Source: Sulfobacillus thermosulfidooxidans
GTDB lineage: Bacteria > Bacillota > Sulfobacillia > Sulfobacillales > Sulfobacillaceae
NCBI RefSeq assembly: GCF_001280565.1
Contig: NZ_LGRO01000001.1
Location: 3,100,001 to 3,164,000 of the forward strand
Length of the DNA stretch: 64,000 nucleotides
Direction of reading: 5' to 3'
Position 1 is the first letter of the stretch; each line of letters begins with the position of its first letter. A program made the translations under genes and the position numbers. The notes beneath the pieces are model-generated. The model worked only from the letters and a program-made list of their open reading frames with translations. It had not been told where the DNA came from and made no database searches. Below, piece by piece: positions 19,082-35,902 of this stretch.

Positions 19082-19246
19082 TGCCAGATGTCCTTCCGCC
19101 CAAGTTTCCTTATATTCTACAGGTTTCGAGGATAAAGCACAAAGTGAAAAAAGTTCGGAGAAAATGCAGGATTTAGCCTGTAAAAGATTTACAGGTGATG
19201 AATCATGTGCGTATATTCAAATAAAAGGGTTGGCGCGGGAGTAAAT

Positions 19247-20443: not shown

Positions 20444-21403
20444 AAACCAATTTTATCATCACAGGCATTAATTCTTATAGATTCAATCATTGCCACCCCC
20501 ACTGGTGACTAAAAAGAATTGAGCCATAGATTGCGGCATCGGCAGTCCAAAGAACGATAATAGGTTGAACAAATCGATTCTGTATTTTAACCACTGTAAA
20601 TTGGAAAATCAACACCCATGAAACGCAATATGCTATGAAGGGGTTAGTCATTGGCATAAAAGCTTAGCGGAACTACAAGAATTATTGCGGAAATAGTATC
20701 AAGGGTAGTCTCATTCTAGATTCGGGGGATTGATGAAGGAGAAAGATTAGTCCTAATATAAATTGGGGTAGACAATAATATCCAGAATTCCATCGCAAGG
20801 ATCCGATGTTTGGAAATTAGGGTAAATTGTTTCCATGGCCAAATCGATTGATAGCGCTATTTTGTGAAATCCATGGTCTCCTTGGAGAAGGGGAAAACAC
20901 TAAAGCGTATAATTGCATGAACCAAAATTATCTCGCTACCCAACAAATTAAGTGTTTCGGGTGATTCACGCCGTTTCGTGAATAATGGCTTCGACTTATA
21001 ACAATTCGAAGTAGCATGAATCAAAGTCCGTTAGTAGATTGGCAGAATGCAAAGACCTAGACTTTAGTCGAACTACCATACGATGGTCCACATTAAAAAG
21101 GTGTGCTAAAAGCTAGGGTTGAGTTCCGTATACTGTAAGCGTTGCGAGGAATATTGGCTATATTAGCACCGTTCCGCGCTATTTCACAGAGTGAACGAGA
21201 ACAAATCCGACAACACTCTCTACGCCTGAACAGATTTGTCCAAAAAACTTTTTCAAGTGGGGAAAACGTTAAAAGTTGGGTTTGAAAAGAAGGAATTAGG
21301 AACTTCTCGTCGAATTTTGAAAAATAAGCAGGAAAATATTGTATCTTGCTGGCTGCCTCGAAATATCTTTACTCAAAAGTTTACATGAAATGGGAGGATT
21401 ATC
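20444..21403. other. Gene-free AT-rich region in the Tad locus
   Basis: No reading frame of note exists on either strand over about 960 bp, in a region otherwise tightly packed. Two neighbouring inverted repeats are seen: ATTCACG with CGTGAAT (20964-20983), and CTTCGA with TCGAAG (20989-21011). A TTGAAA at about 21317 may be the -35 of an flp promoter. The stretch could be a decayed gene, a long leader or an RNA gene; nothing further can be supported. Confidence 0.4.
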
Positions 21404-21595
21404 TTGGCGAAATTACAGGTGTTTTTGTTGGCATTATTTTCGCGAGTTAAGGAAAAAGACGGTCAGGCGTTGGTGGAATATGCTTTAATTTTGGCCCTCA
21501 TTGCTGTGGTCGTCATTGTAGCATTACATTTCTTAGGAAGTTCCGTTAAACATCAATTGAACAATATTGCTAACAACATTACGAATGCGTCCTAA
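21404..21595 (+). CDS. flp: Flp-type prepilin
   Basis: A 63-residue prepilin, the main subunit of Flp/Tad pili. The basic leader ends in K-D-G, and the class-typical G-Q-A-L-V-E-Y motif supports cleavage by a TadV/CpaA-type peptidase after the Gly. The long hydrophobic helix A-L-I-L-A-L-I-A-V-V-V-I follows. The Glu at position 5 of the mature protein is present and the Flp-type Tyr follows it. The start is TTG 21404, five bases after GGGAGGA. A 12-bp hairpin downstream separates it from cpaB and may allow pilin mRNA to exceed the rest of the operon. No prepilin peptidase gene is seen in the window. Confidence 0.92.
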   Translation: MAKLQVFLLALFSRVKEKDGQALVEYALILALIAVVVIVALHFLGSSVKHQLNNIANNITNAS

Positions 21596-21602
21596 TATTT
21601 TG

Positions 21603-21642
21603 AGGTGCGACTATTATGACTAACGTCTGGATAGTCGCACCT
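21603..21642 (+). promoter_or_regulatory. Stem-loop between flp and cpaB
   Basis: A perfect 12-bp stem (AGGTGCGACTAT paired with ATAGTCGCACCT) with a 16-base loop sits just after flp. It lacks a T run, so it is more likely an mRNA-stability or partial-termination element than a full terminator. Confidence 0.6.
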
Positions 21643-21673
21643 TGATCTCTGTGAAGGTGTAGGAGGATTCAAA

Positions 21674-22414
21674 ATGGCTATAGCAAAGCGGATGGGGACA
21701 TTTTTTCGGATAAATCGTTGGCTGTTGGCGGGCATCGTGGTGATTGGTGTAGCTGCTTATGTTTCGGCGCGTTATGTCCAAATCGCTATTCAACAGGCTA
21801 ATGCGAAAACCCATGTTCCTACCGTGCAAGTTCTTGTTGCCTCTCAACCTATTGCTGCTTATGAACCTATTACGTCCAGTATGGTTACGGTGAAAACCTA
21901 TCCAGTGTCTGCTGTACCTGCAGGATCCTATTCTTCTATTCAGCCTCTGAATGGAGCATGGACAACGGAAGCCATTTCGCCGGGTGTTCCTCTCGTGTCC
22001 AGCGAAGTATTTTTCCCTAAAACCGCCAATGTATTAGCAGCCCGTATTAACCCTCAAGACATGGCGGTCGATGTTCCATTGTCGTCAACTAATGCGGTCG
22101 ATGGTTTAATCATGCCGGGCGACAACATTGCCTTATTTATTACAATCACAGAGAAAAATGGGCAAAAAGTTATTGAAGATTTTATGAATCACGTCAAAGT
22201 GTTAGCGGTGAACGGTTCGATGACTCCACCATCTGCTCCTACGGTTGGACAAAGTCCCAATTTGATTGTCGCCATGACACCATCTCGTATTGAATCTCTC
22301 CTATTTGCTGAGCAAAACTCATCGGGCTTTACCGCAGCTCTTGAGTCTCCGCATACTAAGGCGCAACGCCCCACTCCTTATGGACTTAATAATCTTGATA
22401 CTCCGGTTCCTTAA
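21674..22414 (+). CDS. cpaB: CpaB/RcpC-family Flp pilus assembly protein
   Basis: A 246-residue protein with an N-terminal membrane helix (about residues 16-33) and an SAF-like domain starting at V-L-V-A-S-Q-P-I-A-A-Y-E-P-I, characteristic of CpaB/RcpC. In diderms this protein works with the secretin; here no secretin gene is seen, as expected for a monoderm. It probably sits at the outer face of the membrane and guides the pilus. AGGAGGA lies six bases before ATG. It begins the core tad operon cpaB-cpaE-cpaF-tadB-tadC. Confidence 0.85.
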   Translation: MAIAKRMGTFFRINRWLLAGIVVIGVAAYVSARYVQIAIQQANAKTHVPTVQVLVASQPIAAYEPITSSMVTVKTYPVSAVPAGSYSSIQPLNGAWTTEAISPGVPLVSSEVFFPKTANVLAARINPQDMAVDVPLSSTNAVDGLIMPGDNIALFITITEKNGQKVIEDFMNHVKVLAVNGSMTPPSAPTVGQSPNLIVAMTPSRIESLLFAEQNSSGFTAALESPHTKAQRPTPYGLNNLDTPVP

Positions 22415-22438
22415 TTTGTTAATTTGTTGTGAGGATGT

Positions 22439-23584
22439 GTGGTGATGGTAAGCGTACTCGTGGCAGCGATTTCTCCGGTTATGGAATCAATCGATTCCAT
22501 GTTGCGACAGTTGTCGTTCGTCAATATTGCGGGTTCTACGGAAAGTATACGGGAAGCTGTGGATATTGCGGCCGTTGAATCCTTGGATGCGATGATTATT
22601 GATGAAAGTCTCCTCAGTGACAGTTGGGGGCTTCAAGACCGCCTGGCACGTGAGCCATTTCCATTGATTTTAATCATTCATACGCCGAGCGCGGAGTCGA
22701 CTCGCCGCGCATTAGCTATTCATGCGGCTGACGTGATGACTCAGGACGCCATTTCTTCCCTATTACCACCATTATTGAAATCCTTGAATAAATCCGATGA
22801 ACCTGCTGCGGCTTTGCACCGAGTTATTGGGGTATATTCAGCTAAGGGGGGAGTTGGCAAGACAACCTTGGCGGTCAATTTGGCATGGAGCTTAGCCCGT
22901 TTATCTGAACGACCCACTGCGCTCGTCGACTTAGATTTGCAGTTTGGGGACATAGGTCCGATGGTTCACGATAGTCCTGATGTGACGATTCGTGAGCTTG
23001 TTGAAGGCTCACCTAAAGAGGTTGAGGAAGACAAGTTGTCGCGTTCACTCATAGCCGTCGACGGGTTACCGTTAAATCTACTATTGGCACCGTTGCATCC
23101 ACAGTATGCAGACTTGGTGGAATCTCATCACGTCAAAGATATCCTCCAAAAGCTGAAGGCAACACATTCCTTTACTGTGTGTGACTTGTCGGCAGCGTTG
23201 TCCGACCAAAATTTGTCGGCGATGGATCTTGTCGATGTCTTATTGATGGTAGCAACGCCAGAAATGATCACTTTGCGCAATGTCGCTCGATCATTGAAAG
23301 TACTTCAAACCTTATACCCCGAACCCGGTAGAATTCGCATGGTGATCAACCGTGCCGGTACGGGAATGACAACTGATCAAATCAGTCAGTTATTACCCAT
23401 TCCCGTATCGTATTGGATGCCTAGTGGTGGAGTCACACCTGTTCGGTCGGCTAACACGGGTAAACCGTTGGTGGTCGTTGATCCAGCTAATCCTCTGGCA
23501 ATATCCATTGAAAATATTGCCAAGACTTTATTAGAAGAATCTGAAGGGGCAAGCCGTCGGACGGTTCGAAAAGATGTACTGTGA
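22439..23584 (+). CDS. cpaE: CpaE/TadZ-like pilus localisation ATPase
   Basis: About 380 residues. Residues 1-115 form a receiver-like domain with an Asp in MIIDESLL but no full phosphorylation set. A MinD/ParA-type ATPase follows, with the deviant Walker A YSAKGGVGKTTLAV and the D-L-D-L-Q-F-G-D segment. CpaE/TadZ proteins place the Tad machine in the cell. GTG 22439, GTG 22442 and ATG 22445 are all in frame; ATG 22445 has the best distance from GAGGA. A second, similar gene lies at 27969, which is unusual for one Tad locus. Confidence 0.88.
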   Translation: MVMVSVLVAAISPVMESIDSMLRQLSFVNIAGSTESIREAVDIAAVESLDAMIIDESLLSDSWGLQDRLAREPFPLILIIHTPSAESTRRALAIHAADVMTQDAISSLLPPLLKSLNKSDEPAAALHRVIGVYSAKGGVGKTTLAVNLAWSLARLSERPTALVDLDLQFGDIGPMVHDSPDVTIRELVEGSPKEVEEDKLSRSLIAVDGLPLNLLLAPLHPQYADLVESHHVKDILQKLKATHSFTVCDLSAALSDQNLSAMDLVDVLLMVATPEMITLRNVARSLKVLQTLYPEPGRIRMVINRAGTGMTTDQISQLLPIPVSYWMPSGGVTPVRSANTGKPLVVVDPANPLAISIENIAKTLLEESEGASRRTVRKDVL

Positions 23585-23610
23585 GATGAGGCAAAAAGGA
23601 GTGAGAGAAC

Positions 23611-24960
23611 ATGTCACTACGCAACCGAATTAATGGAATGTCTTCAGGAGCGTCTCAAGCCTTTAAAGCCATAAAAACGACACAAAATAGTAAAGCGGGA
23701 GAATTTGATTATTTAGGCACAAATTTTCTTGCCCTTAAAAGCCGTGTGCAAGACGCGTTATTAACTCAAGTGATGGATCCCGAGAAATTATCGCGGGATG
23801 AACTACGAGGTATTATTTTAAATATCGTGGAAGCTGATAAGGAGATCTCTCCTTTAGAAAAAGATGCCTTGGTTAGAATTTTGGTTGATGAAATATTAGG
23901 ATATGGTCCCATACAAGCCCTATTAGACGATCCGGACATTTCCGAAATTATGATTAATGGGCCGTCGAGAGTCTATATTGAACGCCATGGATCATTGATT
24001 AAAACCGATGTAACCTTTCGCGACGAAGCCCACCTGCGTTCAGTATTAGAGAAAATGTTATCCTTTACCGGACGGCGCGTTGATGAGTCTAGTCCTATGG
24101 TGGATGCAAGGCTTCCAGACGGGTCCCGGCTCAATGCGATTTTGCGGCCTCTTGCCGTATCCGGCGATTCTATCACCATTAGAAAATTTTCTAAGGATCC
24201 GTTTGTTCTTTCTCAATTAGTACAGATGGGGACTTTGTCTAGTGAAATGGCCGAATTTATTCAAGCTGCCGTGCATGGCAAATTAAATATTGTGGTGTCT
24301 GGTGGAACTGGCTCTGGTAAAACAACGACATTGAATGCATTGTCGGCCTTCATTCCGGAATCTGAGCGGATAGTCACAATTGAAGATGCGGCAGAACTTC
24401 AACTGCAGCAGGACCATAAAGTGACACTGGAAGCTCGTCCAGCCAATATTGAGGGGCGCGGGGGAATTACGATTCGAGATCTCGTTCGAAATGCGTTGCG
24501 GATGCGTCCTGACCGCATTATTGTCGGTGAGGTTCGTGGTGGCGAGGCCTTAGACATGTTGCAAGCGATGAACACCGGTCATGAGGGAAGTTTGACAACG
24601 GTTCACGCTAATAGTCCACGGGATTGTCTTGCCCGTATCGAAACCATGGTTCTGATGGCAGGTGCGGATTTGCCCCTGACAGCTATTAGAACGCAGGTGG
24701 CCTCGGCAATTGATATTATTATTCAACAAGCACGACTTCTTGACGGCTCCCGCCGAATCATTCGGATCACCGAAGTGGTAGGCATGGAAAGTGGGATTAT
24801 CACCACTCAAGATCTTTTCCAATTCGATCAGACAGGTGTTGATGAAGACGGACGCGTGGTCGGAGTTTTTCGGGCCAATGGAATTCGACCGAAAAATTAT
24901 GATCGCATTCGTTCCCAAGGAGTCGATTTATCGCCCAGTATATTTGGCATGGGGGTCTAA
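23611..24960 (+). CDS. cpaF: CpaF/TadA pilus assembly ATPase
   Basis: A 449-residue secretion ATPase of the VirB11/TadA group that powers Flp pilus extension and retraction. An N-terminal helical domain precedes the ATPase. Walker A is SGGTGSGKTTTLN, the Asp box is R-I-V-T-I-E-D-A-A-E-L-Q-L, Walker B is in R-I-I-V-G-E-V-R-G-G-E-A, and the His box is T-G-H-E-G-S-L-T-T-V-H-A-N. An AAAAGGAG ribosome site precedes ATG 23611. It is followed by tadB after a gap of seven bases. Confidence 0.94.
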   Translation: MSLRNRINGMSSGASQAFKAIKTTQNSKAGEFDYLGTNFLALKSRVQDALLTQVMDPEKLSRDELRGIILNIVEADKEISPLEKDALVRILVDEILGYGPIQALLDDPDISEIMINGPSRVYIERHGSLIKTDVTFRDEAHLRSVLEKMLSFTGRRVDESSPMVDARLPDGSRLNAILRPLAVSGDSITIRKFSKDPFVLSQLVQMGTLSSEMAEFIQAAVHGKLNIVVSGGTGSGKTTTLNALSAFIPESERIVTIEDAAELQLQQDHKVTLEARPANIEGRGGITIRDLVRNALRMRPDRIIVGEVRGGEALDMLQAMNTGHEGSLTTVHANSPRDCLARIETMVLMAGADLPLTAIRTQVASAIDIIIQQARLLDGSRRIIRITEVVGMESGIITTQDLFQFDQTGVDEDGRVVGVFRANGIRPKNYDRIRSQGVDLSPSIFGMGV

Positions 24961-24967
24961 TAGACTC

Positions 24968-25885
24968 ATGAGAGACTTGGCGTTGTGGCTGGCTGTTACA
25001 TGGTCTTTAGCAGTTTTATTACTTGTCGTGGGATACCGTTCTACGCGGGCATATCACATTACGCAAAAGCGTCTTTATGCCATGGGCTCCATCGGCGTAT
25101 CGACGCCGGGTAAGCATATGCCTTTTGATTTGTTTTCGGCTATTCGTAATACTTGGAGTCAAGGACAAAATGCCGCCGCACTAAAATTAAGGATGAGCGA
25201 ATATGTTAGTTTTCTCGTGGGGGCTTTTGTCGTTCCTGCCGTGATTGGATTCGTTGTTCGAGGCCCAATTGGTGGGGCGATGTTAGGGATTATTGGTTTG
25301 GGCGGGATGCTTCTATATTTTCGTCTCATGAAGCAACGGTACTTGCGCCTCGCGGAACAAAGCTTACCCGATTTTCTTAGGGGAATATCAGGGGCTCTAC
25401 GCGCTGGTACTTCTTTAACTCAAGCCATGGCCCTAGTAGCGAAAGAAACGCCTGATCCGTTGGGTTCAGAAATTTCCCGAGTTCTTCGGCGAGAATCCTT
25501 TGGATTTAGCCTCGAGCAAACTTTGAATGAATTAACTACCCGCATTCCGTCCAAGGATTTGGCATTAGCGGTGATGGTAATCAATATCCAACGGGAAATT
25601 GGGGGTTCACTCGCTGACATTTTGGAAAATATCGTGCAAACAATTGTTGCCCGTCAGCGATTAGCTCAAGAAGTGCGGGCTTTGACTGCTCAAGGGCGGA
25701 TGAGTGGATGGGTCTTGACAGTCTTGCCGTTTATCTTAGGGATCGCCATTTGGTTTTTGGACCCGAATTATATGAATCCACTCTTTCATACTACCATGGG
25801 ACTGATTATGCTAGGTTCGGCCACAATATCGGTTGCGTTAGGCGGCTTTGTGATTAACCGCTTAGTTCGTTCACCAGAACTATAA
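24968..25885 (+). CDS. tadB: TadB-like inner platform protein
   Basis: A 305-residue membrane protein of the type II secretion F (T2SSF) family. Two hydrophobic helices sit near the N-terminal third, followed by the T2SSF segment (L-P-D-F-L-R-G-I-S-G-A-L-R-A-G-T-S-L) and two C-terminal helices. A longer in-frame stretch begins at 24791, but it would lie inside cpaF; ATG 24968, just after the cpaF stop, is the sensible start. TadB pairs with TadC to form the membrane platform for the CpaF motor. Confidence 0.88.
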   Translation: MRDLALWLAVTWSLAVLLLVVGYRSTRAYHITQKRLYAMGSIGVSTPGKHMPFDLFSAIRNTWSQGQNAAALKLRMSEYVSFLVGAFVVPAVIGFVVRGPIGGAMLGIIGLGGMLLYFRLMKQRYLRLAEQSLPDFLRGISGALRAGTSLTQAMALVAKETPDPLGSEISRVLRRESFGFSLEQTLNELTTRIPSKDLALAVMVINIQREIGGSLADILENIVQTIVARQRLAQEVRALTAQGRMSGWVLTVLPFILGIAIWFLDPNYMNPLFHTTMGLIMLGSATISVALGGFVINRLVRSPEL

Positions 25886-25904
25886 TGTATCATTCAGGAG
25901 TGAA

Positions 25905-26843
25905 ATGGCGATGTTATTTTGGTTAAACGTAACCATTGCTGCACTATTAGCGTTAGCTGTGGTTATGGTCGCTCTGTGGGTTCGAGATTTACGGGTTGCT
26001 AATCGTCAGAAAACACTTCATGAACGTTTGCAGTCTTATCAATTGGTGAGAAAACCACCGGCTGATGAACTCGAAATACCTTTTGTTCAACGGGTTATTG
26101 TGCCTGAAATGCGTAGGATATTAGCGGCTATATCTCGAACACTGACGCCGGCAAAAGTCCGAAATGAATTGGCAAGACGTCTTCGTCAGGCTGGGAGTAA
26201 GTTAAGTCCGGAAGTCTTTGCGTTGTACCGCTTAGCGATAGCGGGCTTATTGTTAGCGTTGGGTATCTTTTTGGTGAGAATAAATTCCACTGAGTCAGAG
26301 TGGCAGCAAATTTTGATTCCTTTAGGAATGGCGATGCTTGGCTATGTTTTCATGGGCGTCAGGGTTAATACCCAAGCGCAAAACCGTTTAAAGGCATTAG
26401 AACGTTCGTTACCTGAAGTGTTTGATTTATTGAGTGTGAGCGTTGAAGCGGGATTAGCATTTGATGCGGCCATGCGCAAATTGGTTACGAATATCGATGA
26501 CGGGCCTGCTAAAGAAGAATTTTCCCGCGTGATGTCAGACATTCAATTGGGAATGACTCGAGCAGAAGCATTGGCTGCTTTGGCGGAACGTACCAAATCC
26601 CGGGAATTAAAAAGATTTGCCGGTCTAGTTGCCCAATCTGATCGAACAGGAAGTGGAATAGCAGGCGCGTTACGTGTACAAGCGCGTGATATTAAAGAGG
26701 CAAGAGCGGCACAGGCCCGGGAAAAGGCCGCGTTAATTCCGGTGAAAATCATTTTTCCGATGGTATTCTTCATTTTTCCGGCAATATTTATTGTAATTTT
26801 AGGTCCAGCGATGCTGTCGATTGTACACCTATTTCATGGATAA
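25905..26843 (+). CDS. tadC: TadC-like inner platform protein
   Basis: A 312-residue T2SSF-family membrane protein. An N-terminal helix (about residues 5-25) is followed by two central helices and the T2SSF core, with S-L-P-E-V-F-D-L-L-S-V-S-V-E-A-G-L-A-F-D-A-A typical of TadC, and a C-terminal hydrophobic end. AGGAG lies seven bases upstream of ATG. It is placed directly after tadB, as in most Tad loci. The next gene overlaps its last eight bases, so the DUF192 gene is translationally coupled to it. Confidence 0.88.
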   Translation: MAMLFWLNVTIAALLALAVVMVALWVRDLRVANRQKTLHERLQSYQLVRKPPADELEIPFVQRVIVPEMRRILAAISRTLTPAKVRNELARRLRQAGSKLSPEVFALYRLAIAGLLLALGIFLVRINSTESEWQQILIPLGMAMLGYVFMGVRVNTQAQNRLKALERSLPEVFDLLSVSVEAGLAFDAAMRKLVTNIDDGPAKEEFSRVMSDIQLGMTRAEALAALAERTKSRELKRFAGLVAQSDRTGSGIAGALRVQARDIKEARAAQAREKAALIPVKIIFPMVFFIFPAIFIVILGPAMLSIVHLFHG

Positions 26844-27234
26844 GTTGGCGACAATGAACAGAAGGGATAAAGATATTTTTCATGCCGAGCTAGTATCGAT
26901 AAGTAATGCGCGGACTGGGGAAATTATCGGTTCGCGTGTGATTGTTGCCCGTTCATTTTGGCAAAGGTTCAAAGGCCTCATGGGTACAACATCATTGGAA
27001 ACGGGACATGGCATGTTATTTCCCCACACGAATTCGGTACATATGTTTTTCATGCGTTATCCATTGTGTGTGGTTTATTTAACCAAGGATTTTGTAGTAC
27101 AGCGTTGTGTTGTGCTTAAACCATGGACGTTGGGGCCTGTTGTCAAGAGAGCATATTGGGTATTAGAACTGCCAAAGGATGCGGTTAAAAAACTTTCGGT
27201 CCATGATTTGTTATATGTCACGAAGATATGCTAA
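26836..27234 (+). CDS. DUF192 family protein
   Basis: A 132-residue DUF192 protein, recognised by the S-F-W-Q-R-F-K-G-L-M-G segment, the G-M-L-F-P-H-T-N-S-V-H-M-F-F-M-R-Y-P core and the L-E-L-P-K-D-A end. The family is widespread in bacteria and archaea and its biochemical role is unknown; many members carry a signal peptide, but this one has none visible. ATG 26836 overlaps the tadC stop, and an alternative ATG is at 26854. DUF192 genes are often found with Tad loci, so a pilus-linked role is plausible. Confidence 0.78.
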   Translation: MDKLATMNRRDKDIFHAELVSISNARTGEIIGSRVIVARSFWQRFKGLMGTTSLETGHGMLFPHTNSVHMFFMRYPLCVVYLTKDFVVQRCVVLKPWTLGPVVKRAYWVLELPKDAVKKLSVHDLLYVTKIC

Positions 27235-27241
27235 TCAGATA

Positions 27242-27766
27242 TTACGGACATGACGAAGGCGGCGATGATTTAGAAAACGATCCCGTTTCTGTTCCTGTGG
27301 AATTTCCCCCTTCCTGAATCATTGTATAGTGCTGATTCATCGGCACCGATGTACCAAAACCAGGCAAGCTGACTAACAAGGGATAGGATGTTGATACGGT
27401 AACCCCAACAGCGGGCAAGGATGTGGAAGCAGACGGAGATGGTGATGGTGTCGTTGAGGAAGACGATGAATTGGGAGGATTGCCATTGGAAAACTTTGCA
27501 GTCCATGTTACGACGGTCGTGTTTGGAAACAAGCCTGTATTAATTTGGTTATAAATGGCACAGCCGATTTGTGTTGAATTCTCGCCTAGTGATGCTGCAC
27601 GTACCCCAGCACGCGCCCCTTGTTCAATGGAAATAAATCCACTAAAGATCAACCCCATTTGGATGATGGCAAAGAGAAACAGCAGTAAGAGAGGTACCAT
27701 TAGTGCAAATTCGACAAGAGCCTGACCTTGATGATCTTGGCAGATATGATTCCAAACTCTTTTCAT
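27242..27766 (-). CDS. TadE-like pseudopilin
   Basis: A 174-residue TadE-like protein. The N-terminal G-Q-A-L-V-E-F-A-L-M-V-P and long hydrophobic helix are diagnostic of TadE and TadF minor pseudopilins. After the helix comes Q-G-A-R-A-G-V-R-A-A. The C-terminal half holds a Ser/Thr/Pro-rich low-complexity stretch that probably forms an extended spacer, possibly glycosylated. It lies on the strand opposite the rest of the Tad locus and ends eight bases after the convergent DUF192 gene. Confidence 0.8.
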   Translation of the reverse strand: MKRVWNHICQDHQGQALVEFALMVPLLLLFLFAIIQMGLIFSGFISIEQGARAGVRAASLGENSTQIGCAIYNQINTGLFPNTTVVTWTAKFSNGNPPNSSSSSTTPSPSPSASTSLPAVGVTVSTSYPLLVSLPGFGTSVPMNQHYTMIQEGGNSTGTETGSFSKSSPPSSCP

Positions 27767-27968
27767 CCTGCTTATATTCTCCTATTCTTAGGAAACAGTG
27801 CTAGTGGAATAAGAATCAAAATACGTTAATATTTATGGAATTGATTATAGTGTACGAACGAATTGTGCTTGTGTAAATAATTTCCTTGGGATCAAAAGAA
27901 TTATCTCCCATAATTGTGTAGTATTCAGTAGAATAAACCAAGAGTTTGTTGTTGGGGAGGGACAAGTA

Positions 27969-29150
27969 TTGTTCACAGTGTATGTGGCAAGTCAGGAGGG
28001 ACTGCGTGCCAAATTAGTGGGAGCGGTGAAGAATATTCCCGGGGCAGTTCTCGATGGCAGTTCCACCGACTTGCGACAAGCACTGGATGAATGTGCTACA
28101 GAACATCCCGGTGTTCTCCTCATCGACGATGAATTGTTAGTTCAAAATATAGGGCTTTTCGAACAAATTGCAGCTCTTCCCTATCCGATTGTTGTATTGG
28201 CTTCTCCGACTGACGCGGGCGCGGCCAGACGAGCTTTGGCGGTTAAAGCCAAAGACTTTATCAGTCTCGAGAGTTGGCAGCAAGATTTAGCCGCCATTTT
28301 GTCCCGGGTGGCAACCCCCCTTGAAGGGGAAGTGCATCATGATGGGCGGGTTATTGTGGTGTTTTCTTCTAAAGGAGGTGTCGGCAAAACCACCCTCAGT
28401 GTGAATTTGGCCATTGCCCTGGCCAAAGCCAGTCGTCAACCTGTCGCACTCGTGGATTTGGACATTCAATTTGGCGATGTGGCGCCCATGGTAGGGGACG
28501 CTCCTTTAGTCACTCTGTATGATTTGGTCAAGGGAACGACACATATTGACGCAGATATGGTGAAAAGGGCCCTCAAACGCGTTGCTAATAATGTGTACAT
28601 TTTGGCGGCACCTAATAACCCGGAAGAAGCGGATGATATCCGCGCCGATCATATTGTGCAAGTCTTGCAATTGTTACGTGAGACTCACGCCTACGTCGTT
28701 GTTGACACGGCTCCTGGGTATACCGATATTAATGTTGCGGCTTTTGATTTTTCGGATACGATTTTAACGGTTTGTACTCCCGATGTGGTGACCTTGCGCA
28801 CGGTTGGACAAGCACTTCAAGTATTCTATGACGGATTTCATTATGCCAAAGATAAAGTACGGATTGTACTTAACCGTAGTGGCTCCAAGACAGGCGTTGA
28901 AACCACCGATATAGCCCAAGTGCTGCAAAGCCCTGTAAATTATCAGCTACCTAGCGATGGGGCTTATCCTGTGCGTGCAGCCAACGAAGGACAGCCCCTC
29001 ATGTTACAATTTCCGGAGTCGGCATTGGCCCGCGCCATTCAAAACATTGCCAATGAGCTGGTTCAAGAAACTGAAGGCCGTCAACGAACGGTAGCAAAAA
29101 AACCCGCTAAACTTCCCTTCTTCGCTCGCTTACTGCGAAAACCCGAATAA
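27969..29150 (+). CDS. Second CpaE/TadZ-like ATPase
   Basis: A 393-residue protein with the same layout as the CpaE at 22.4 kb: a receiver-like N-terminus (L-L-I-D-D-E-L-L) and a MinD/ParA-type ATPase with Walker A FSSKGGVGKTTLSV and V-D-L-D-I-Q-F-G-D. The two share many segments (P-V-A/T-A-L-V-D-L-D-x-Q-F-G-D and others), so they are paralogues. The start is TTG 27969 after GGGGAGGG. Having two CpaE proteins around one Tad locus is unusual; one may serve a second pilus or the neighbouring cytochrome genes. Spacing of about 200 bp from tadE suggests its own promoter. Confidence 0.82.
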   Translation: MFTVYVASQEGLRAKLVGAVKNIPGAVLDGSSTDLRQALDECATEHPGVLLIDDELLVQNIGLFEQIAALPYPIVVLASPTDAGAARRALAVKAKDFISLESWQQDLAAILSRVATPLEGEVHHDGRVIVVFSSKGGVGKTTLSVNLAIALAKASRQPVALVDLDIQFGDVAPMVGDAPLVTLYDLVKGTTHIDADMVKRALKRVANNVYILAAPNNPEEADDIRADHIVQVLQLLRETHAYVVVDTAPGYTDINVAAFDFSDTILTVCTPDVVTLRTVGQALQVFYDGFHYAKDKVRIVLNRSGSKTGVETTDIAQVLQSPVNYQLPSDGAYPVRAANEGQPLMLQFPESALARAIQNIANELVQETEGRQRTVAKKPAKLPFFARLLRKPE

Positions 29151-29308
29151 TCTCGCATCAAATCCCATCCTCCACACTTTCGATATCCCGTATTTTCTCA
29201 CGCCGTATTCTTCTGATGAAGAATGTCATGTTATGAAGAATTATGGTACAGTGCACAATATTGTGAGTATGTCCCAGATCACGACATCATGGAAGAGGAG
29301 CCAATGGA

Positions 29309-31030
29309 ATGATCCAAAAAGGACGCTGGGGAATAGGGATAATGGCCGTGATTATCGCTTCCGGAGTGGGCTATGCCATAGCTCAAGCCCAGAAAGCACC
29401 GCCAGTTCCGACCACTAATGTGGGACCTCAGTCATTTACAAAGTATGCCATGAATGCGAGCAATAATGCCGTATACGAAACAGCAACAGTAAAGAATTGG
29501 ACGGCAAACTGGACCTTTACGGCCAAAGAACCGTTGCAGCAAGCTTCTATCGCGAATGGTATTATCTATATTTCGGGGGACGGCGGCAATTTAGCTTATC
29601 GCCATAATGATTTAATTTATGCGGTCGATGCCCAAAATGGACAAAAATTGTGGGCGACTCATCTTAACAACATGTCGATGACCACACCCGTTGTGGCTCA
29701 GGGCATGGTGTTTGTGGGCAGTGGTACGCAAGGGTTCAATCCAAAGGAGCAGGCCCTCGTCAATCACTTGCATACCCGTCATATCATTCGCGGGACAGGG
29801 CCTAATGCCATTTATGCCTTAAACAGCCATACAGGCCAGGTAATCTGGAAATATAACACGCCGGGAGAAAATATGCCGACGTTTGTTTACCACCAAGGCA
29901 CGCTTTATGTCGCCAATGGAAATGGTAAGGTCTATGCCTTTAATGCCAAATCCGGCACCTTGTTATGGACAGTCAACATAGGATCATATGTTAGCATGTC
30001 TTCTCCAGTGCTAGACGGGGATTTGCTTTATATCTCTGGAGCCCATCCCTATGCCTTATATGCGGTGAATATTAAAACGCACCAGATTCAATGGAAAACG
30101 CCTGTGCCAGCTGTCTTCGCAGGATCGGATGACTGTTCCTTGGCGCTATGGCATCACCGGATTTTTTTAGAAGGCACGGCGGGCACGTGGCAGCATCCTC
30201 GCTCGGTATTCTTTGCTTTTGACAATCAAGATGGGCGCTTATTATGGAAAAGACGTTTAGGTGGGGGATTGTTGCCCACCAATATCGAGGTTTCGGCCCC
30301 GGTGGTGAATCAGGGCACGGTATTTATCGGATCGCCAATTACGCATAAAGAATATGCATTTAATGCCCGCACGGGTCATCTAGACTGGTCGTTTAAGGCC
30401 GCAGCACCCATTGCCGAATCGCCTGCAATCTTTGATCATCGCCTATTTGTCGGAGATACCATGGGAATGTTCTATGTTTTGAATAGCCATACGGGCCAGG
30501 AAATTGCCGCACGTTATCTAGCAGGAGCGTTTGCAGCCGATTATCCCTTAATCGTGGGAAAAACCCTGTATCAACCGAATCAAAATGGGCAAATGCTAGC
30601 GATCCCTATAAATACCTTGATGGATTCCAAGAAAAATGCTTTCGCGAGTTTACCTGTGCCCGCTGGTGTGATGGGAGCCGATATATTACAAGGAGAAAAA
30701 ATTTTTATGAGCCCCAGGTTGTCATCCCGGGGACTCACGTGCAACTCCTGCCACGTGGATCAAGGAACTACCACGACTTATATGAAGGGACATATTATTC
30801 CGACGCTCATTGGTGCCGTATCTGCTTTTCCTCTCGTAAGAAATGGTCACGTGAGGACGTTAGATGGACAAATTAATCACTGTATTACAGCTATGGGGGC
30901 AAAAAAATTATCCTCTTCAAGCCGCACCATCAAGTATTTAAATTTGTATTTGCATTGGTTATCGAGTGGTTTTTCCAACCGCCTTACTCCCCCTGCCGGA
31001 CACCAAACGATTACGGGAGGCTGCAATTAA
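29309..31030 (+). CDS. PQQ-type beta-propeller protein with a C-terminal haem-c site
   Basis: A 573-residue protein. An N-terminal hydrophobic segment (about residues 8-24) acts as export signal or anchor. Residues 60-430 hold six or more repeats of the BamB/PQQ-dehydrogenase type (for example A-V-D-A-Q-N-G-Q-K-L-W, A-L-N-S-H-T-G-Q-V-I-W, A-F-N-A-K-S-G-T-L-L-W). The end has one haem-binding C-N-S-C-H at about residue 480 and a lone Cys at the end. It would lie outside the membrane and move electrons; whether it binds PQQ or only has the fold cannot be told. GAGGAG precedes ATG 29309. The next gene, a small cytochrome, overlaps its stop. Confidence 0.8.
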   Translation: MIQKGRWGIGIMAVIIASGVGYAIAQAQKAPPVPTTNVGPQSFTKYAMNASNNAVYETATVKNWTANWTFTAKEPLQQASIANGIIYISGDGGNLAYRHNDLIYAVDAQNGQKLWATHLNNMSMTTPVVAQGMVFVGSGTQGFNPKEQALVNHLHTRHIIRGTGPNAIYALNSHTGQVIWKYNTPGENMPTFVYHQGTLYVANGNGKVYAFNAKSGTLLWTVNIGSYVSMSSPVLDGDLLYISGAHPYALYAVNIKTHQIQWKTPVPAVFAGSDDCSLALWHHRIFLEGTAGTWQHPRSVFFAFDNQDGRLLWKRRLGGGLLPTNIEVSAPVVNQGTVFIGSPITHKEYAFNARTGHLDWSFKAAAPIAESPAIFDHRLFVGDTMGMFYVLNSHTGQEIAARYLAGAFAADYPLIVGKTLYQPNQNGQMLAIPINTLMDSKKNAFASLPVPAGVMGADILQGEKIFMSPRLSSRGLTCNSCHVDQGTTTTYMKGHIIPTLIGAVSAFPLVRNGHVRTLDGQINHCITAMGAKKLSSSSRTIKYLNLYLHWLSSGFSNRLTPPAGHQTITGGCN

Positions 31031-31386
31031 TGCACATCACCAAAAAAATCACCACTCTGATATTTGCGTTGTTCACGGTGGGGATCGCGAGCTATATGCT
31101 CACCACACGCAATATGGCCATAAAAGCGCAGCACGTTAACGAGGAGCAGGCGGGAGGAGTGCTGTTTGCTAATTTATGCGCAACATGCCATGGTCCTGGT
31201 GGAGATGGATCAGGAGGCGCTCCGAATTTAAGCGACGGGCATGTGTTACAAAAATATCCGACATCACAAGCATTGAGCACGTTTATTCAACAGCGCATGC
31301 CTGCTACTGCCCCGGGAACTTTGAATCCTGACGAAACCCGCGATTTAGTATTATATATTCAAAGGTTAAACCGTGGCCCATCATAA
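31030..31386 (+). CDS. Small c-type cytochrome
   Basis: A 118-residue monohaem cytochrome c. The N-terminus has a signal anchor (about residues 7-24), followed by the haem-binding C-A-T-C-H at about residue 55 in G-x-V-L-F-A-N-L-C-A-T-C-H-G-P-G-G-D-G-S-G, and a probable axial Met in I-Q-Q-R-M-P-A. ATG 31030 overlaps the previous stop by one base, and GGGAGG lies nine bases upstream, so it is coupled to the beta-propeller gene. It probably acts as an extracytoplasmic electron carrier for that protein. Placement beside the pilus locus is notable. Confidence 0.88.
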   Translation: MHITKKITTLIFALFTVGIASYMLTTRNMAIKAQHVNEEQAGGVLFANLCATCHGPGGDGSGGAPNLSDGHVLQKYPTSQALSTFIQQRMPATAPGTLNPDETRDLVLYIQRLNRGPS

Positions 31387-31457: not shown

Positions 31458-32339
31458 TTGTTAAGGTATGTCCGTGCCTCATTAGAGGATCAGGCGAAGG
31501 TTGAAGAGTTTTTACGGAGTATTCAGGATGAGGGTTTACTGAAGCAAGTGAGTTCACTTCTCAGTCTCACGCAAGGTGGTTTGTATTTAGCAATTGATGA
31601 TCATGATGCAATTGTCGGGACAGCGGTCATTACGTTGCCGAAAAGGCACGAGGCATATCTTGGTCATGTCAGACTGGCATCCCCCAATCAAGATCGGGAG
31701 ACATTAAAAGACTTTGCATCCTTCCAACTCGAAGAAGCACGAAAATTGGGTGCTCATGTCATACGCGCTTTAGCCAGTGAAAAGGACCAATTGTGGGCTG
31801 CTGTTTTACAGGAAGAGTCTGAATTTAAACCAGTAGAAAAATGGGTCGTGGGAAGCTTTGAAGGATTTCAAGCTCCTGATGTTCCGCCCCTCGAAGCGGG
31901 GCCGGCCTGGGCGGTTGATAAAGAACGGATTCGAGAATTTATGGATCAAGTGACGAATCCTCTATGGGCCGAGAATGATCTACATATTCCGAGTTCCCTT
32001 GAACCGCAAGATTTAGAAAACCAATTTGAAGTGGGCGGCGTTGCGGTGGCCCCTCAAGATGGACGGCTGACCGTGGATTCTTTAGCCCTATACCGGGTGC
32101 GTAATACCGATGCCATCGATATTAAATATTTTCGGAGCCACGGCCATTATCTTCGTCAACTTCTTGATTATTTGTGGCTGGAAGCGCGTGCCTGGGGTGT
32201 GTCGAAAATGCGAGTTGGCTTGAATGAACAAACGGCATCCCAAATTGCTGATGCATTGCAAATTCCCATTCAGGTCGAATGGACAGGGAGTATTTTGGTC
32301 CATTACATTAATCATGGACTGCAAGCGGCATCTGTATGA
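31458..32339 (+). CDS. GNAT-like uncharacterised protein
   Basis: A 293-residue protein with the general shape of two tandem GNAT acetyltransferase domains. The N-terminal half has L-Y-L-A-I-D-D-H-D-A-I-V-G-T-A-V and H-V-R-L-A, and the C-terminal half has L-L-D-Y-L-W-L-E-A-R-A-W-G-V-S, like GNAT strands and helices. No clear R/Q-x-x-G-x-G/A acetyl-CoA loop is found in either half, so the activity is doubtful. The start is TTG 31458. Its last four bases overlap the next gene (ATGA), tying it to the mannosyltransferase cluster. Confidence 0.55.
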   Translation: MLRYVRASLEDQAKVEEFLRSIQDEGLLKQVSSLLSLTQGGLYLAIDDHDAIVGTAVITLPKRHEAYLGHVRLASPNQDRETLKDFASFQLEEARKLGAHVIRALASEKDQLWAAVLQEESEFKPVEKWVVGSFEGFQAPDVPPLEAGPAWAVDKERIREFMDQVTNPLWAENDLHIPSSLEPQDLENQFEVGGVAVAPQDGRLTVDSLALYRVRNTDAIDIKYFRSHGHYLRQLLDYLWLEARAWGVSKMRVGLNEQTASQIADALQIPIQVEWTGSILVHYINHGLQAASV

Positions 32340-33496
32340 TTCTTAATCGGTTTCAGGGATGGAAAGAGGCTTGGTGGCCTGACAAAGAGTCGGCTAAAGA
32401 GCTGTTTCAAATCTTAGTGTTTAGCCGTATTGCGTTAATCGTGGCGGGATGGATAGGACTGGCCCGGCTACCGTGGAAGTACTATTCTCCCACGTTTAAC
32501 GTGACGACCAATCCTATTCTGTTGATGTGGATTCGGTGGGATGGCTTGTGGTATACAGGTATTGCGATCCATGGCTACTGGTTTCAGGCTCTAGCCTTTT
32601 TCCCCCTCTATCCGCTTCTCACGGCGTTATTACACTGGATTACGTTTCTTCCGGTTTATGTTACCGCCTTGATCGTATCGAATTTGGGACTAATAGGTTT
32701 TACAATAAGCTTTTATGGATTGGTTCGCGATCTCTACGGTGATGATTTAGCGAAGCGCGCTGTGTGGATTGCCATTATGTTTCCCACTGCTTTTTTTATG
32801 TCGGCGGCCTATACCGAAGGCCTTTACATGTTTTTGAGCACGACCGTGTTTTGGTTGGCTTACCGAAAAAAATTTTGGGCGGCAGGAATTTTTGGGATGT
32901 TAGCAGCACTCACCCGCAATGAAGGCGCGTTTACGGTCATTCCAATTTTATGGTCCTATTATCAAAGTTATGGATGGACAATTAAAAAAGCCTTGTGGAG
33001 TGTACTCTTGGTTCCCGCAGGCATTGTGGCGTTCATGATCTACCAATGGCGGGATTTTGGCTCTCCTTTAGCATTTATCGCCGCTCAATCCTATTGGGGC
33101 CGTCAAATCACATGGCCATGGGTGGGAATATTTTTGGCAATAAAGACCATTTGGCACGGTAGTCCATTGCAGCCGAGCACAATTCTCAGTATGATAGATT
33201 TATGTGCCGCGCTTGTTTTTATGATCTTGTGGATTTTTGCGTGGCGGCGAAAGTTTCCTGTTGACTGGTTAGCATATTGGGGTATCCTGTTGCTGATTGA
33301 TATTTCAGCACCGGATATTCACGGGAGAAGTCCGTTATTATCGATGTCACGGCTTGTGCTGATATTGTTTCCCGGCTTTGTGATGCTGGGTATACTAGCA
33401 AAGCATGAGAGTTGGAATCGATTTTTTCATTGGCTTCTCCCCATGTTGCAGGTGACATTCTTTTTGATCTTTGCAACATGGCATTGGATTGCATAA
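32336..33496 (+). CDS. PIG-V-like mannosyltransferase
   Basis: A 386-residue membrane protein with about nine to ten helices that resembles the PIG-V/GPI mannosyltransferase 2 group of GT-C enzymes. The hallmarks are W-I-R-W-D-G-L-W-Y-T-G-I-A near residues 65-77, F-F-P-L-Y-P and the A-A-Y-T-E-G-L-Y-M-F segment, which match the family motifs. It would use a lipid-linked mannose donor on the outer membrane face. The next gene is a polyprenol-phosphate mannose synthase that could supply this donor, which strongly supports the assignment. Confidence 0.8.
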   Translation: MILNRFQGWKEAWWPDKESAKELFQILVFSRIALIVAGWIGLARLPWKYYSPTFNVTTNPILLMWIRWDGLWYTGIAIHGYWFQALAFFPLYPLLTALLHWITFLPVYVTALIVSNLGLIGFTISFYGLVRDLYGDDLAKRAVWIAIMFPTAFFMSAAYTEGLYMFLSTTVFWLAYRKKFWAAGIFGMLAALTRNEGAFTVIPILWSYYQSYGWTIKKALWSVLLVPAGIVAFMIYQWRDFGSPLAFIAAQSYWGRQITWPWVGIFLAIKTIWHGSPLQPSTILSMIDLCAALVFMILWIFAWRRKFPVDWLAYWGILLLIDISAPDIHGRSPLLSMSRLVLILFPGFVMLGILAKHESWNRFFHWLLPMLQVTFFLIFATWHWIA

Positions 33497-33515
33497 TACT
33501 CAAGGAGGCTAATGC

Positions 33516-34265
33516 ATGCGTGCCTTAGTGATTCTTCCCACCTACAATGAGTTGGGAAATCTCGGACCGTTGGTAGATTCGATTATCGAACAAGGTGAGA
33601 TGTTTGACGTCTTGATTATTGATGACGGGTCTCCTGATGGTACGGGATTATTAGCCGATCACTTAAAAACGGTTTATCCCAACCGTGTGGAAGTGATTCA
33701 CCGTCAAGGCAAGCTCGGGTTGGCGACGGCGTATCTAACGGGATTTCGATTTGGATTAAACAAGGGATATGACTATATGTTTGAAATGGACGCGGATTTT
33801 TCTCATAACCCGCGTTATCTACCCCAATTTATCGAGACCATGCTGCGTGAAAAAGCTGATGTGGTTTTAGGATCGCGTTATGTTCAAGGTGGAGGCGTAA
33901 CTCGCTGGCCGTGGTATCGCAAGGTGATTTCCCGCGGCGGATCACTCTATGCGGGACTCGTTTTAGGGGTCAACGTGAAGGATTTGACCGGAGGGTTTAA
34001 ATGCTTTAGCAGGCGCGTTCTCGAATCGATTAATCTTGAAACCATTGAATCCACAGGCTATGGATTTCAAATTGAAATGACCTACCGGGCGCTGAAAGCA
34101 GGATTCAAGGTGGTTGAGATGCCAATTATTTTTGAAGAACGTCGGGAAGGCAAGAGTAAGATGTCTCCCGGTATTTTTATGGAAGCGTTATGGATGGTGG
34201 GAAAACTTCGCATTCAAAGCGGTCTTGAAGGAGAGCATCATCCGGCCGGAGAACGGCTGCGTTAA
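33516..34265 (+). CDS. Polyprenol monophosphomannose synthase (GT2)
   Basis: A 249-residue family-2 glycosyltransferase of the DPM1 type: L-P-T-Y-N-E start, I-D-D-G-S-P-D-G-T, the catalytic E-M-D-A-D-F-S-H-N-P, G-S-R-Y-V and G-G-F-K-C-F. It makes polyprenyl-phosphate mannose from GDP-mannose on the inner membrane face. It lacks the C-terminal GtrA-type membrane domain of longer forms, but a separate GtrA protein follows five bases later. Start ATG 33516 follows AAGGAGG. With the PIG-V-like protein it forms a lipid-linked mannosyl-transfer set. Confidence 0.88.
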   Translation: MRALVILPTYNELGNLGPLVDSIIEQGEMFDVLIIDDGSPDGTGLLADHLKTVYPNRVEVIHRQGKLGLATAYLTGFRFGLNKGYDYMFEMDADFSHNPRYLPQFIETMLREKADVVLGSRYVQGGGVTRWPWYRKVISRGGSLYAGLVLGVNVKDLTGGFKCFSRRVLESINLETIESTGYGFQIEMTYRALKAGFKVVEMPIIFEERREGKSKMSPGIFMEALWMVGKLRIQSGLEGEHHPAGERLR

Positions 34266-34270
34266 ATTCT

Positions 34271-34744
34271 ATGATAATGAAATATCGGCAATTAATTGAC
34301 CGGATGCTTCGATATGGCATCATAGGAGTCAGTGGTGTTGGCGTCAATTTAGGTGTGTTGACGATTTTACACCACCTTTGGCCGTTGCAAGCAACTCTGA
34401 CTTATGTCATAGCCGTCGAAGCATCTATCATTAGCAATTATGTCTTAAATGCGTGGTTTACATTCAAAGCCCGGGTCCATTTTGCCGGTTTGATGCGATA
34501 TAATGTGGTTTCCGCCGGCGGATTAATTGTTCAGACAGCGATTTACAAGCTGTTACTCATGCAACACCTGAATTATATCGTGGCGGATCTCATTGCGATT
34601 CCTTTTGGTACAATCATTGGATTTATCTTGTCGAACGTTTGGGTTTTTCGGGGACGGGAGGGCTTATCCTCACATGACCAAGTCAACAACCCGGTTACCG
34701 GGGCCCCAGCCAGCCCCCCTGGACGCCCTGGAGGCCGTCGTTGA
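34271..34744 (+). CDS. GtrA-family membrane protein
   Basis: A 157-residue GtrA-like protein with four helices. Typical features are the L-x-R-Y-G-I-I-G-V-S-G-V-G-V-N-L start, S-N-Y-V-L-N-A-W-F-T-F and the S-N-V-W-V-F-R-G end. GtrA proteins are thought to help flip or present polyprenyl-phosphate sugars, which fits the upstream mannose synthase. The last 24 residues are a Pro/Gly/Arg-rich tail that lies in the 71-bp overlap with the next gene. That tail could be a by-product of the overlap. Confidence 0.84.
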   Translation: MIMKYRQLIDRMLRYGIIGVSGVGVNLGVLTILHHLWPLQATLTYVIAVEASIISNYVLNAWFTFKARVHFAGLMRYNVVSAGGLIVQTAIYKLLLMQHLNYIVADLIAIPFGTIIGFILSNVWVFRGREGLSSHDQVNNPVTGAPASPPGRPGGRR

Positions 34745-35465
34745 GGCAGGGCTGGCTATGCTGACTAGTGGCGCTGAAGTATCCCGTGTCGAAGACACGA
34801 TGGTGCGTCTCGCGCAGGCTTACCGAATTGAGCCGGTCGACGTTGTGGCAATGCCGACAGCGTTATTTGTCGCGGGACCCGATGGCCGCAGTTTGGTGAA
34901 ACGAGTGCGGCGACGTTCGGTCAATTTGGCTGTCGTCGCCGAAATCAACCAATTGTCACGAGATGTGGCAAAAAATCCGATTCCGCTTAGCGAATTTCGG
35001 GAACAACTAGAAAAAGCCAAGCAACGGGCGATCTATCCACCCTGGTCGAGTATTTTGTTTGCGGCCGGGGCAGCTGGTCTTATTAGCCAGTTAATGGGCG
35101 GTCACTTGATTGATGTGTTGCCGGCTGCTGTTAGTGGGGGATTGACCCAATTAACTCGGCGCACCTTATTTAAGACCCAAATTCCTGGCAGTCTTAGCGA
35201 TTTATTGTCCGCGGCCGTGGCGACACTTCCGGCCTTATTTCTGGCGCGGTTTCATTCCTTCCAACCGGGGGCCATTCTTGTTGGCGGCATTATGGTATTA
35301 ACACCGGGATTACTCTTTACCACGGCAGTGCGTGACGGGATCACAGGAGATTTAGTGTCGGCGGTTAGCCGCCTGCTTGAAGCCTTGCTCATTGGAGGAG
35401 CCGTGGCAGCAGGGGCGAGTTTGCCCTTGTATATTTATCTGCACCTAGGAGGGCGCTGGCCGTGA
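34674..35465 (+). CDS. Threonine/serine exporter, ThrE N-terminal part (DUF1212)
   Basis: A 263-residue protein of the ThrE/DUF1212 type. The soluble N-terminus (A-L-E-A-V-V-E-A-G-L-A-M-L-T-S-G-A-E-V-S-R-V-E-D-T) is followed by about five membrane helices. In many Firmicutes the exporter is split in two; the second half follows with a GTGA overlap. A longer in-frame reading from 34593 lies inside the GtrA gene and is not supported; ATG 34674 has GGGAGG upstream. It is predicted to export threonine and serine with the next protein. Confidence 0.85.
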   Translation: MTKSTTRLPGPQPAPLDALEAVVEAGLAMLTSGAEVSRVEDTMVRLAQAYRIEPVDVVAMPTALFVAGPDGRSLVKRVRRRSVNLAVVAEINQLSRDVAKNPIPLSEFREQLEKAKQRAIYPPWSSILFAAGAAGLISQLMGGHLIDVLPAAVSGGLTQLTRRTLFKTQIPGSLSDLLSAAVATLPALFLARFHSFQPGAILVGGIMVLTPGLLFTTAVRDGITGDLVSAVSRLLEALLIGGAVAAGASLPLYIYLHLGGRWP

Positions 35466-35902
35466 TTCAGCAAGCCCTATTTGCAGCGTTGACCACGATA
35501 GCTTTTGGCTTTTTATATCAGGTCCGAACGTCCTTGTTATGGATTGCGGGAGTGATTGGGGCCTTAGCGTGGATGGCTTCTCTTACGGTGAGTCTCATCC
35601 CGGGAGCAGGTCTTTTAGGAGACTTCGTCGGAGCTTTTGTAGTGGGCAGTTTGGCTGAAGTAGCAGCCCTGTGGAAAAAGCAGCCGGTAACCATTTTTGT
35701 GGTGCCTGCCATTATTTCCTTCGTGCCCGGATATATGGTCTATGAAAGTATGGTGGCATTTCTCAAAAATCATTTTAATCAAGGACTGCGCTTTAGTTTA
35801 ACCGCTATTTTTTCTGCGGCGGCGCTATCATTAGGCCTGGCCCTCGCAACCGCCCTTTTGCGCCCGTTACTGCGTCCCCACCATCCTTTTAGTTCTCATT
35901 AG
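35462..35902 (+). CDS. Threonine/serine exporter, second part (DUF3815)
   Basis: A 146-residue protein with four or five hydrophobic helices and the V-P-A-I-I-S-F-V-P-G-Y-M-V-Y-E-S segment typical of the ThrE C-terminal half. It starts at GTG 35462 inside the stop of the first half (GTGA), so the two are translated together and form one transporter. Its end overlaps the convergent Fur-family gene by 14 bp. Substrate specificity is known only by family. Confidence 0.85.
   Translation: MIQQALFAALTTIAFGFLYQVRTSLLWIAGVIGALAWMASLTVSLIPGAGLLGDFVGAFVVGSLAEVAALWKKQPVTIFVVPAIISFVPGYMVYESMVAFLKNHFNQGLRFSLTAIFSAAALSLGLALATALLRPLLRPHHPFSSH

Follow-up and report, generated by a model that had tools for sequence, protein, structure and literature searches.

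What does a gene do that joins a propeller to a c-type haem domain and lies next to a pilus locus? The question is raised by a 64,000-nucleotide stretch of the Sulfobacillus thermosulfidooxidans genome (positions 3,100,001-3,164,000 of contig 1 in a 3.83-Mb genome; hereafter the window). In this stretch a first-pass annotation had read a CpaE-like ATPase, a propeller protein with the haem motif CNSCH and a small cytochrome with CATCH, and all three genes are present as described. Comparison of sequences and predicted folds identifies the propeller gene as a fusion of a tetrathionate hydrolase (TTH) type propeller with a TsdA/SoxA-type haem domain, followed by a short flexible tail that bears a cysteine at its end. 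These domain assignments are solid. We infer from them two activities and their coupling, a flow of electrons to the neighbouring cytochrome and a carrier role for the tail, which together would make the fusion an exported enzyme that oxidises sulfur compounds by two activities and has its own electron acceptor. This reading has about an even chance of being right (roughly 0.5). The fusion and its partner consist of the following features, in window coordinates:

29309-31030, plus strand: TTH::TsdA/SoxA fusion gene (573 amino acids), composed of an export helix (residues 4-27), propeller, haem-c domain and flexible tail.
29531-30622, plus strand: propeller assigned to the tetrathionate hydrolase type (residues about 75-438) by phmmer and by Foldseek against 6l8a.
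30131-30133, plus strand: codon of D275, which aligns with Asp325, the general acid essential to A. ferrooxidans TTH (7cqy is the D325N mutant).
30653-30970, plus strand: haem-c domain assigned to the TsdA/SoxA type (residues 449-554) by PF21342, TIGR04484, a profile match to 4wq7 and the fold of 4wq8.
30740-30754, plus strand: haem attachment motif CNSCH (C478, C481, H482), in which both cysteines and the histidine are invariant.
30881-30883, plus strand: codon of the invariant C525, aligned to 4wq7 at Cys96 of TsdA, the catalytic axial ligand of haem 1.
30971-31027, plus strand: flexible tail with a variable linker, then the invariant G571-C572, ending GGC(N), from the alignment and a predicted local distance difference test score (pLDDT) of 24-27.
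31030-31386, plus strand: partner one-haem class I cytochrome c (118 amino acids from its ATG), matching PF13442/PF00034, with CATCH at 31177-31191.

The stop codon of the fusion gene overlaps the ATG of the cytochrome gene (TAATG, 31028-31032), so the coupling that had been proposed for these two genes is borne out. Both CNSCH and CATCH fall inside recognised c-type cytochrome domains and are therefore not chance occurrences of a short motif.

The best solved relative of the propeller is A. ferrooxidans TTH (6l8a; phmmer E-value 1e-40). An AlphaFold2 model of the fusion (mean pLDDT 79) matches the same structure in Foldseek with an E-value of 8.8e-37 and a root-mean-square deviation (rmsd) of 2.2 Å, the next family being BamB at 1e-23, and the propeller has the eight blades of the TTH type. 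D275 aligns with Asp325 in both the phmmer and the MAFFT alignments and is invariant in the 15 intact fusions. In A. ferrooxidans TTH, Asp325 is essential and acts as the general acid (PMC10859504). On these comparisons the propeller is of the tetrathionate hydrolase type, and hydrolysis is its predicted activity. It had earlier been called ‘PQQ-type’, after pyrroloquinoline quinone (PQQ), which is correct as a generic repeat name but misses tetrathionate hydrolase as the specific relative. A PQQ-dependent quinohaemoprotein dehydrogenase, built from a propeller and a C-terminal cytochrome c, is rejected here as scarcely credible. Type II alcohol dehydrogenases do have the same domain order as the fusion, and generic PQQ repeat families match it. 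However, the PQQ dehydrogenase family model reaches 58 bits against a cut-off of 480, TTH is far closer in fold, and the cysteines of the fusion, found only at positions 276, 478, 481, 525 and 572, include no adjacent pair that could form the PQQ-site disulfide. Tetrathionate hydrolase needs no PQQ.

The haem domain matches the Pfam family SoxA-TsdA_cyt-c (PF21342) at 27.7 bits against a cut-off of 27, and the NCBIfam SoxA model TIGR04484 with an E-value of 1e-12 and 47.8 bits, under the curated cut-off of 110 bits. A profile of 14 homologues finds A. vinosum TsdA (4wq7) at 4e-12 and SoxA at 4e-8. When the haem-domain model is searched alone, the first 13 fold matches are TsdA, TsdBA and SoxAX, with 4wq8 at 1.7e-5. 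Counting residues along 4wq7 places H482 of CNSCH at His53 and C525 at Cys96, and the His/Cys ligation of haem 1 seen in TsdA is present by alignment. In C. jejuni TsdA the homologous residue, Cys138, is a ligand of haem 1 and is required for activity (PMC5146829). By its sequence the domain is the active-site half of the TsdA/SoxA type, and thiosulfate oxidation is predicted for it. Each fusion has a single CxxCH and no second TsdA haem domain in the same chain; true two-haem TsdA proteins occur in relatives (L106, L107). The haem domain could conceivably run in the opposite direction and reduce polythionates with electrons from the cytochrome, like C. jejuni TsdA, as TsdA enzymes are reversible and some act as reductases (PMC5146829). 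This is very unlikely, because the fused hydrolase would consume the same substrate, the organisms with the fusion are acidophiles that oxidise sulfur and iron, and tetrathionate reduction had not been observed in Sulfobacillus (PMC4378227). Stand-alone one-haem TsdA/SoxA-like proteins (L097-L105) also occur, as open frames of about 140-220 amino acids with the conserved end RHLS(R/H)FHER; they occur across several of the order's genomes, including some that lack the fusion, and have a single haem-thiolate domain and no obvious partner.

In each of the 16 fusion genomes, the gene immediately after the fusion encodes a one-haem class I cytochrome c. The pairing persists in G041, a genome of another family with entirely different flanking genes, and the predicted conservation of the haem-propeller/cytochrome pair thus holds. 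The partner has an N-terminal export/anchor helix and a conserved MPA with a likely Met ligand. Its derivation from a split-off TsdA haem-2 domain was considered and set aside: a profile of the 16 partners ranks three same-genome class I cytochromes (67-80 bits) above TsdA haem 2 (40-47 bits).

Exactly four cysteines are invariant across the alignment of 15 fusions, namely the haem-binding C478 and C481, the ligand C525 and the C-terminal C572. C572 is the last or next-to-last residue in every fusion, G571-C572 is invariant, and the chain ends in GGC in 14 of the 15 aligned fusions and in the broken sixteenth. The linker before it is held at 16-20 residues despite its variable sequence (mean column identity 0.37, against 0.66 in the haem domain and 0.70 in the propeller), and the tail is unstructured in the model. 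No GGC end occurs in the 26 unfused propellers that could be read (three of which became unfused secondarily), in nine stand-alone haem-domain proteins, which end ...RHLSRFHER, or in two true two-haem TsdA proteins from this order. In SoxY, sulfur is carried by the cysteine within a C-terminal GGCGG, and the LbpA sulfur-oxidation proteins too have a glycine-neighboured cysteine near the C-terminus (PMC6067878). The fusion shares with the SoxY carrier a glycine-flanked C-terminal cysteine on a flexible arm, with glycines before the cysteine and none after it. The resemblance is limited to this motif; there is no SoxY fold, and the SoxY domain PF13501 gives no Pfam match in the fusion. By analogy with SoxY, the tail cysteine probably carries a sulfur intermediate.

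How could these parts work together? C525 would leave the iron and take the sulfane sulfur of thiosulfate as Cys-S-S-SO3; a Cys-S-thiosulfonate adduct is described for TsdA (PMC5146829). Two electrons would pass to the haem of the fusion and then to the separate one-haem partner cytochrome. Subsequently, the sulfur unit would be joined to a second thiosulfate, forming tetrathionate, or, as is judged more likely, to C572, much as SoxY is loaded by SoxAX. With D275 acting as general acid, the TTH-type propeller would then hydrolyse the terminal S-SO3 bond, so that sulfate is released and the sulfane sulfur stays behind; in SoxAX/SoxB chemistry, SoxB hydrolyses SoxY-S-S-SO3 (PMC5336275). The net reaction would be thiosulfate + H2O -> sulfate + zero-valent sulfur + 2e-, without SoxY or canonical SoxB. 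In its fullest form, this would be a complete SoxAX-SoxY-SoxB-like cycle on one polypeptide, with an origin independent of Sox: the protein's own C572 would be loaded and swing to an unrelated Asp propeller, where the bound thiosulfonate would be converted to sulfate and a persulfide. We propose this cycle tentatively, as a reading with a less than even chance of being right. Even without the carrier step, the fusion would amount to a single-chain S4-intermediate pathway.

Two other readings were considered. The activities may be coupled only by free tetrathionate, which the TsdA part makes and the TTH part hydrolyses, with C572 used for an inter-subunit disulfide or for attachment. TTH and TsdA are indeed the best matches of the two domains, TTH is a homodimer (PMC10859504) and the TsdA reaction requires no carrier protein. 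This explanation is possible but rather doubtful, as it leaves the Gly-Gly-Cys end unexplained, with its near-fixed linker length, its free sequence and its restriction to the fused form. Alternatively, tetrathionate may come first: the propeller would split it into sulfate and disulfane monosulfonate, an unstable sulfane compound that TTH is proposed to form first (PMC10859504). The haem-thiolate, alone or together with C572, would capture and oxidise this compound before elemental sulfur arises. The same residues would be used, yet such an order is unlikely given that the enzyme nearest to the haem domain acts on thiosulfate. To our knowledge, no SoxA/TsdA relative has been shown to oxidise disulfane monosulfonate, which counts against it as well.

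Several observations weigh against a bifunctional enzyme with its own acceptor and carrier arm. A TsdA chain normally has a second haem, which the fusion lacks, and other class I cytochromes of the genome are nearer to the partner than the TsdA haem-2 domain is. The tail reads GGC and not GGCGG, and one fusion ends in AGC (L058, in G041). Three propellers derived from the fusion have lost both haem domain and tail, so the propeller can persist alone. Finally, one loop of TTH is described as enclosing a cavity together with the propeller (PMC10859504).

Each characterised counterpart shares some of these parts. A. ferrooxidans TTH (Af-Tth, 6l8a/7cqy; PMC10859504) has the propeller fold, the catalytic Asp, export and an acidophilic host in common with the fusion, but it has no haem domain, cysteine tail or cytochrome partner and falls in a separate clade. 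TsdA (A. vinosum 4wq7; TsdBA 5lo9) shares the haem-1 domain, CxxCH and the catalytic axial Cys; the fusion differs by lacking a second haem domain in the chain and by having a separate one-haem cytochrome, a fused propeller and the GGC tail. With the Sox system (SoxAX/SoxYZ/SoxB), the likeness lies in a SoxA-type haem-thiolate, a C-terminal glycine-flanked Cys as in SoxY and a predicted sulfonate-removing hydrolase as in SoxB, whereas the fusion has no SoxY fold or SoxYZ protein, uses an unrelated Asp propeller as hydrolase and is a single polypeptide. Closest in proposed net chemistry is Erythrobacter flavus, in which TsdA and SoxB are proposed to convert thiosulfate to sulfate and zero-valent sulfur by thiosulfate oxidation followed by sulfonate hydrolysis (PMC7608252). 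There, however, the two proteins are separate, the hydrolase is another one and there is no cysteine tail.

No SoxY was found in 61 relatives by a search that recovers three in Yoonia as a positive control. Four of the nine fusion genomes tested encode a SoxB-like protein, which scores under the curated cut-off and is therefore not an obligate partner. In G000, which has no SoxY, a SoxB-like metallophosphoesterase (G000:C1:1159900-1161219; 280 bits, where the SoxB model requires 550) is encoded some 9 kb away from a further TTH-like propeller gene (G000:C1:1150465-1151526).

The system appears to be undescribed, as had been suggested: full-text searches of open-licence papers returned no description of a tetrathionate hydrolase fused to haem, TsdA or SoxA, an earlier mention elsewhere being possible. 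Its domains are known and their combination is new, and the tail may give a new mechanism. Genome papers on Sulfobacillus report homologues of TTH, some of which belong to uncharacterised families (PMC4378227), and attribute the oxidation of thiosulfate to the quinone-linked DoxDA. Models of thiosulfate and tetrathionate oxidation in Sulfobacillus and other Gram-positive leaching bacteria build on TTH and on a quinone-linked oxidation of thiosulfate (PMC4378227, PMC4062416, PMC5114278). With a route through haem, sulfur compounds would in addition be connected directly to cytochrome c. If the tail carries sulfur, it would represent an independent and self-contained solution to the SoxYZ problem, in which loading, carrying and hydrolysis could be separated by three point mutants. 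This would also bear on the proposed Sox reactions, none of which, according to PMC5336275, has been directly demonstrated. In bioleaching communities, the fusion and its cytochrome could serve as a pair of marker genes for the oxidation of sulfur.

The fusion is found in 16 of the 42 genomes of the order, and only in Sulfobacillus and order-level relatives; the relatives include Sulfobacillus thermotolerans, S. harzensis and S. benefaciens AMDSBA4 as well as metagenome-assembled genomes of Bacillota. A two-peptide-pattern scan of 84,980 species returned 13 relatives, all of this group, and one weak SoxA-like match in Yoonia. Among 398 genomes drawn from the phylum there was no fusion outside the order; either search could miss more divergent fusions. 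In a propeller tree with Af-Tth as the sole characterised TTH reference, the fusions group in a single clade (95/98) that also contains three nested unfused copies, a pattern that implies one gain of the fusion and one loss of the haem domain. Judged from this tree, the fusion arose once. Af-Tth groups with L010/L045, and the fusion clade lies within a wider Asp-bearing group, outside the characterised-TTH clade. The Af-Tth orthologue of the genome is a separate gene, L010, one of ten other propeller matches. The three nested copies (L062-L064, genus g11) have lost haem domain and tail and keep the catalytic Asp, and two of their three genomes (G017, G026) also keep a full fusion. In S. thermotolerans Kr1 (G004), the fusion gene (L061, 9209-10896) has a frameshift near residue 389 in the propeller and an intact cytochrome; the frameshift may be real decay or a sequencing error. 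Elsewhere, a 1044-amino-acid open frame (G000:C1:2266610-2269192) holds two TTH-like propellers in tandem, one of which (L014) is without the catalytic Asp at the aligned position.

What, then, of the pilus genes? Two neighbouring features lie outside the system:

19205-29150, strand unspecified: Tad pilus block, from domain matches and synteny.
27969-29150, plus strand: CpaE-like ATPase, from a domain match; last gene of the Tad block, adjacent to the fusion in the window's genus only.

The Tad locus upstream includes a Tad/TadG-like gene at 19205, RcpC/CpaB at 21674, CpaE-like ATPases at 22439 and 27969 and TadE at 27242 on the minus strand, and a gap of 158 nucleotides separates the last CpaE-like gene from the fusion gene. 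The first-pass annotation had placed electron transfer close to surface pili and had taken a non-conserved neighbourhood as grounds for rejection. The Tad locus adjoins the fusion in four genomes of one genus, the window's own and three more (G000, G001, G003 and G004), which is what favours electron-transfer proteins working with Tad pili. However, the other 12 of the 16 fusion genomes have no such adjacency, the cytochrome pairing persists, and the domains point to thiosulfate/tetrathionate chemistry rather than to electron transfer at surfaces or minerals. Since the synteny is not conserved, the linkage to Tad is rejected, and a role with the pili is highly improbable; on the cytochrome side the neighbourhood is conserved. 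In 11 genomes of other genera, the fusion directly adjoins genes found at 15.9-19.1 kb of the window, and only in the window's genus does the roughly 10-kb Tad block (19205-29150) stand between these two otherwise touching blocks. The simplest reading is an insertion of the Tad block in one genus. Downstream, the window genes at 31458-35902 mostly follow in the same order within the family; the two after the cytochrome (31458-33496), in an order conserved across the family, are without any Pfam match.

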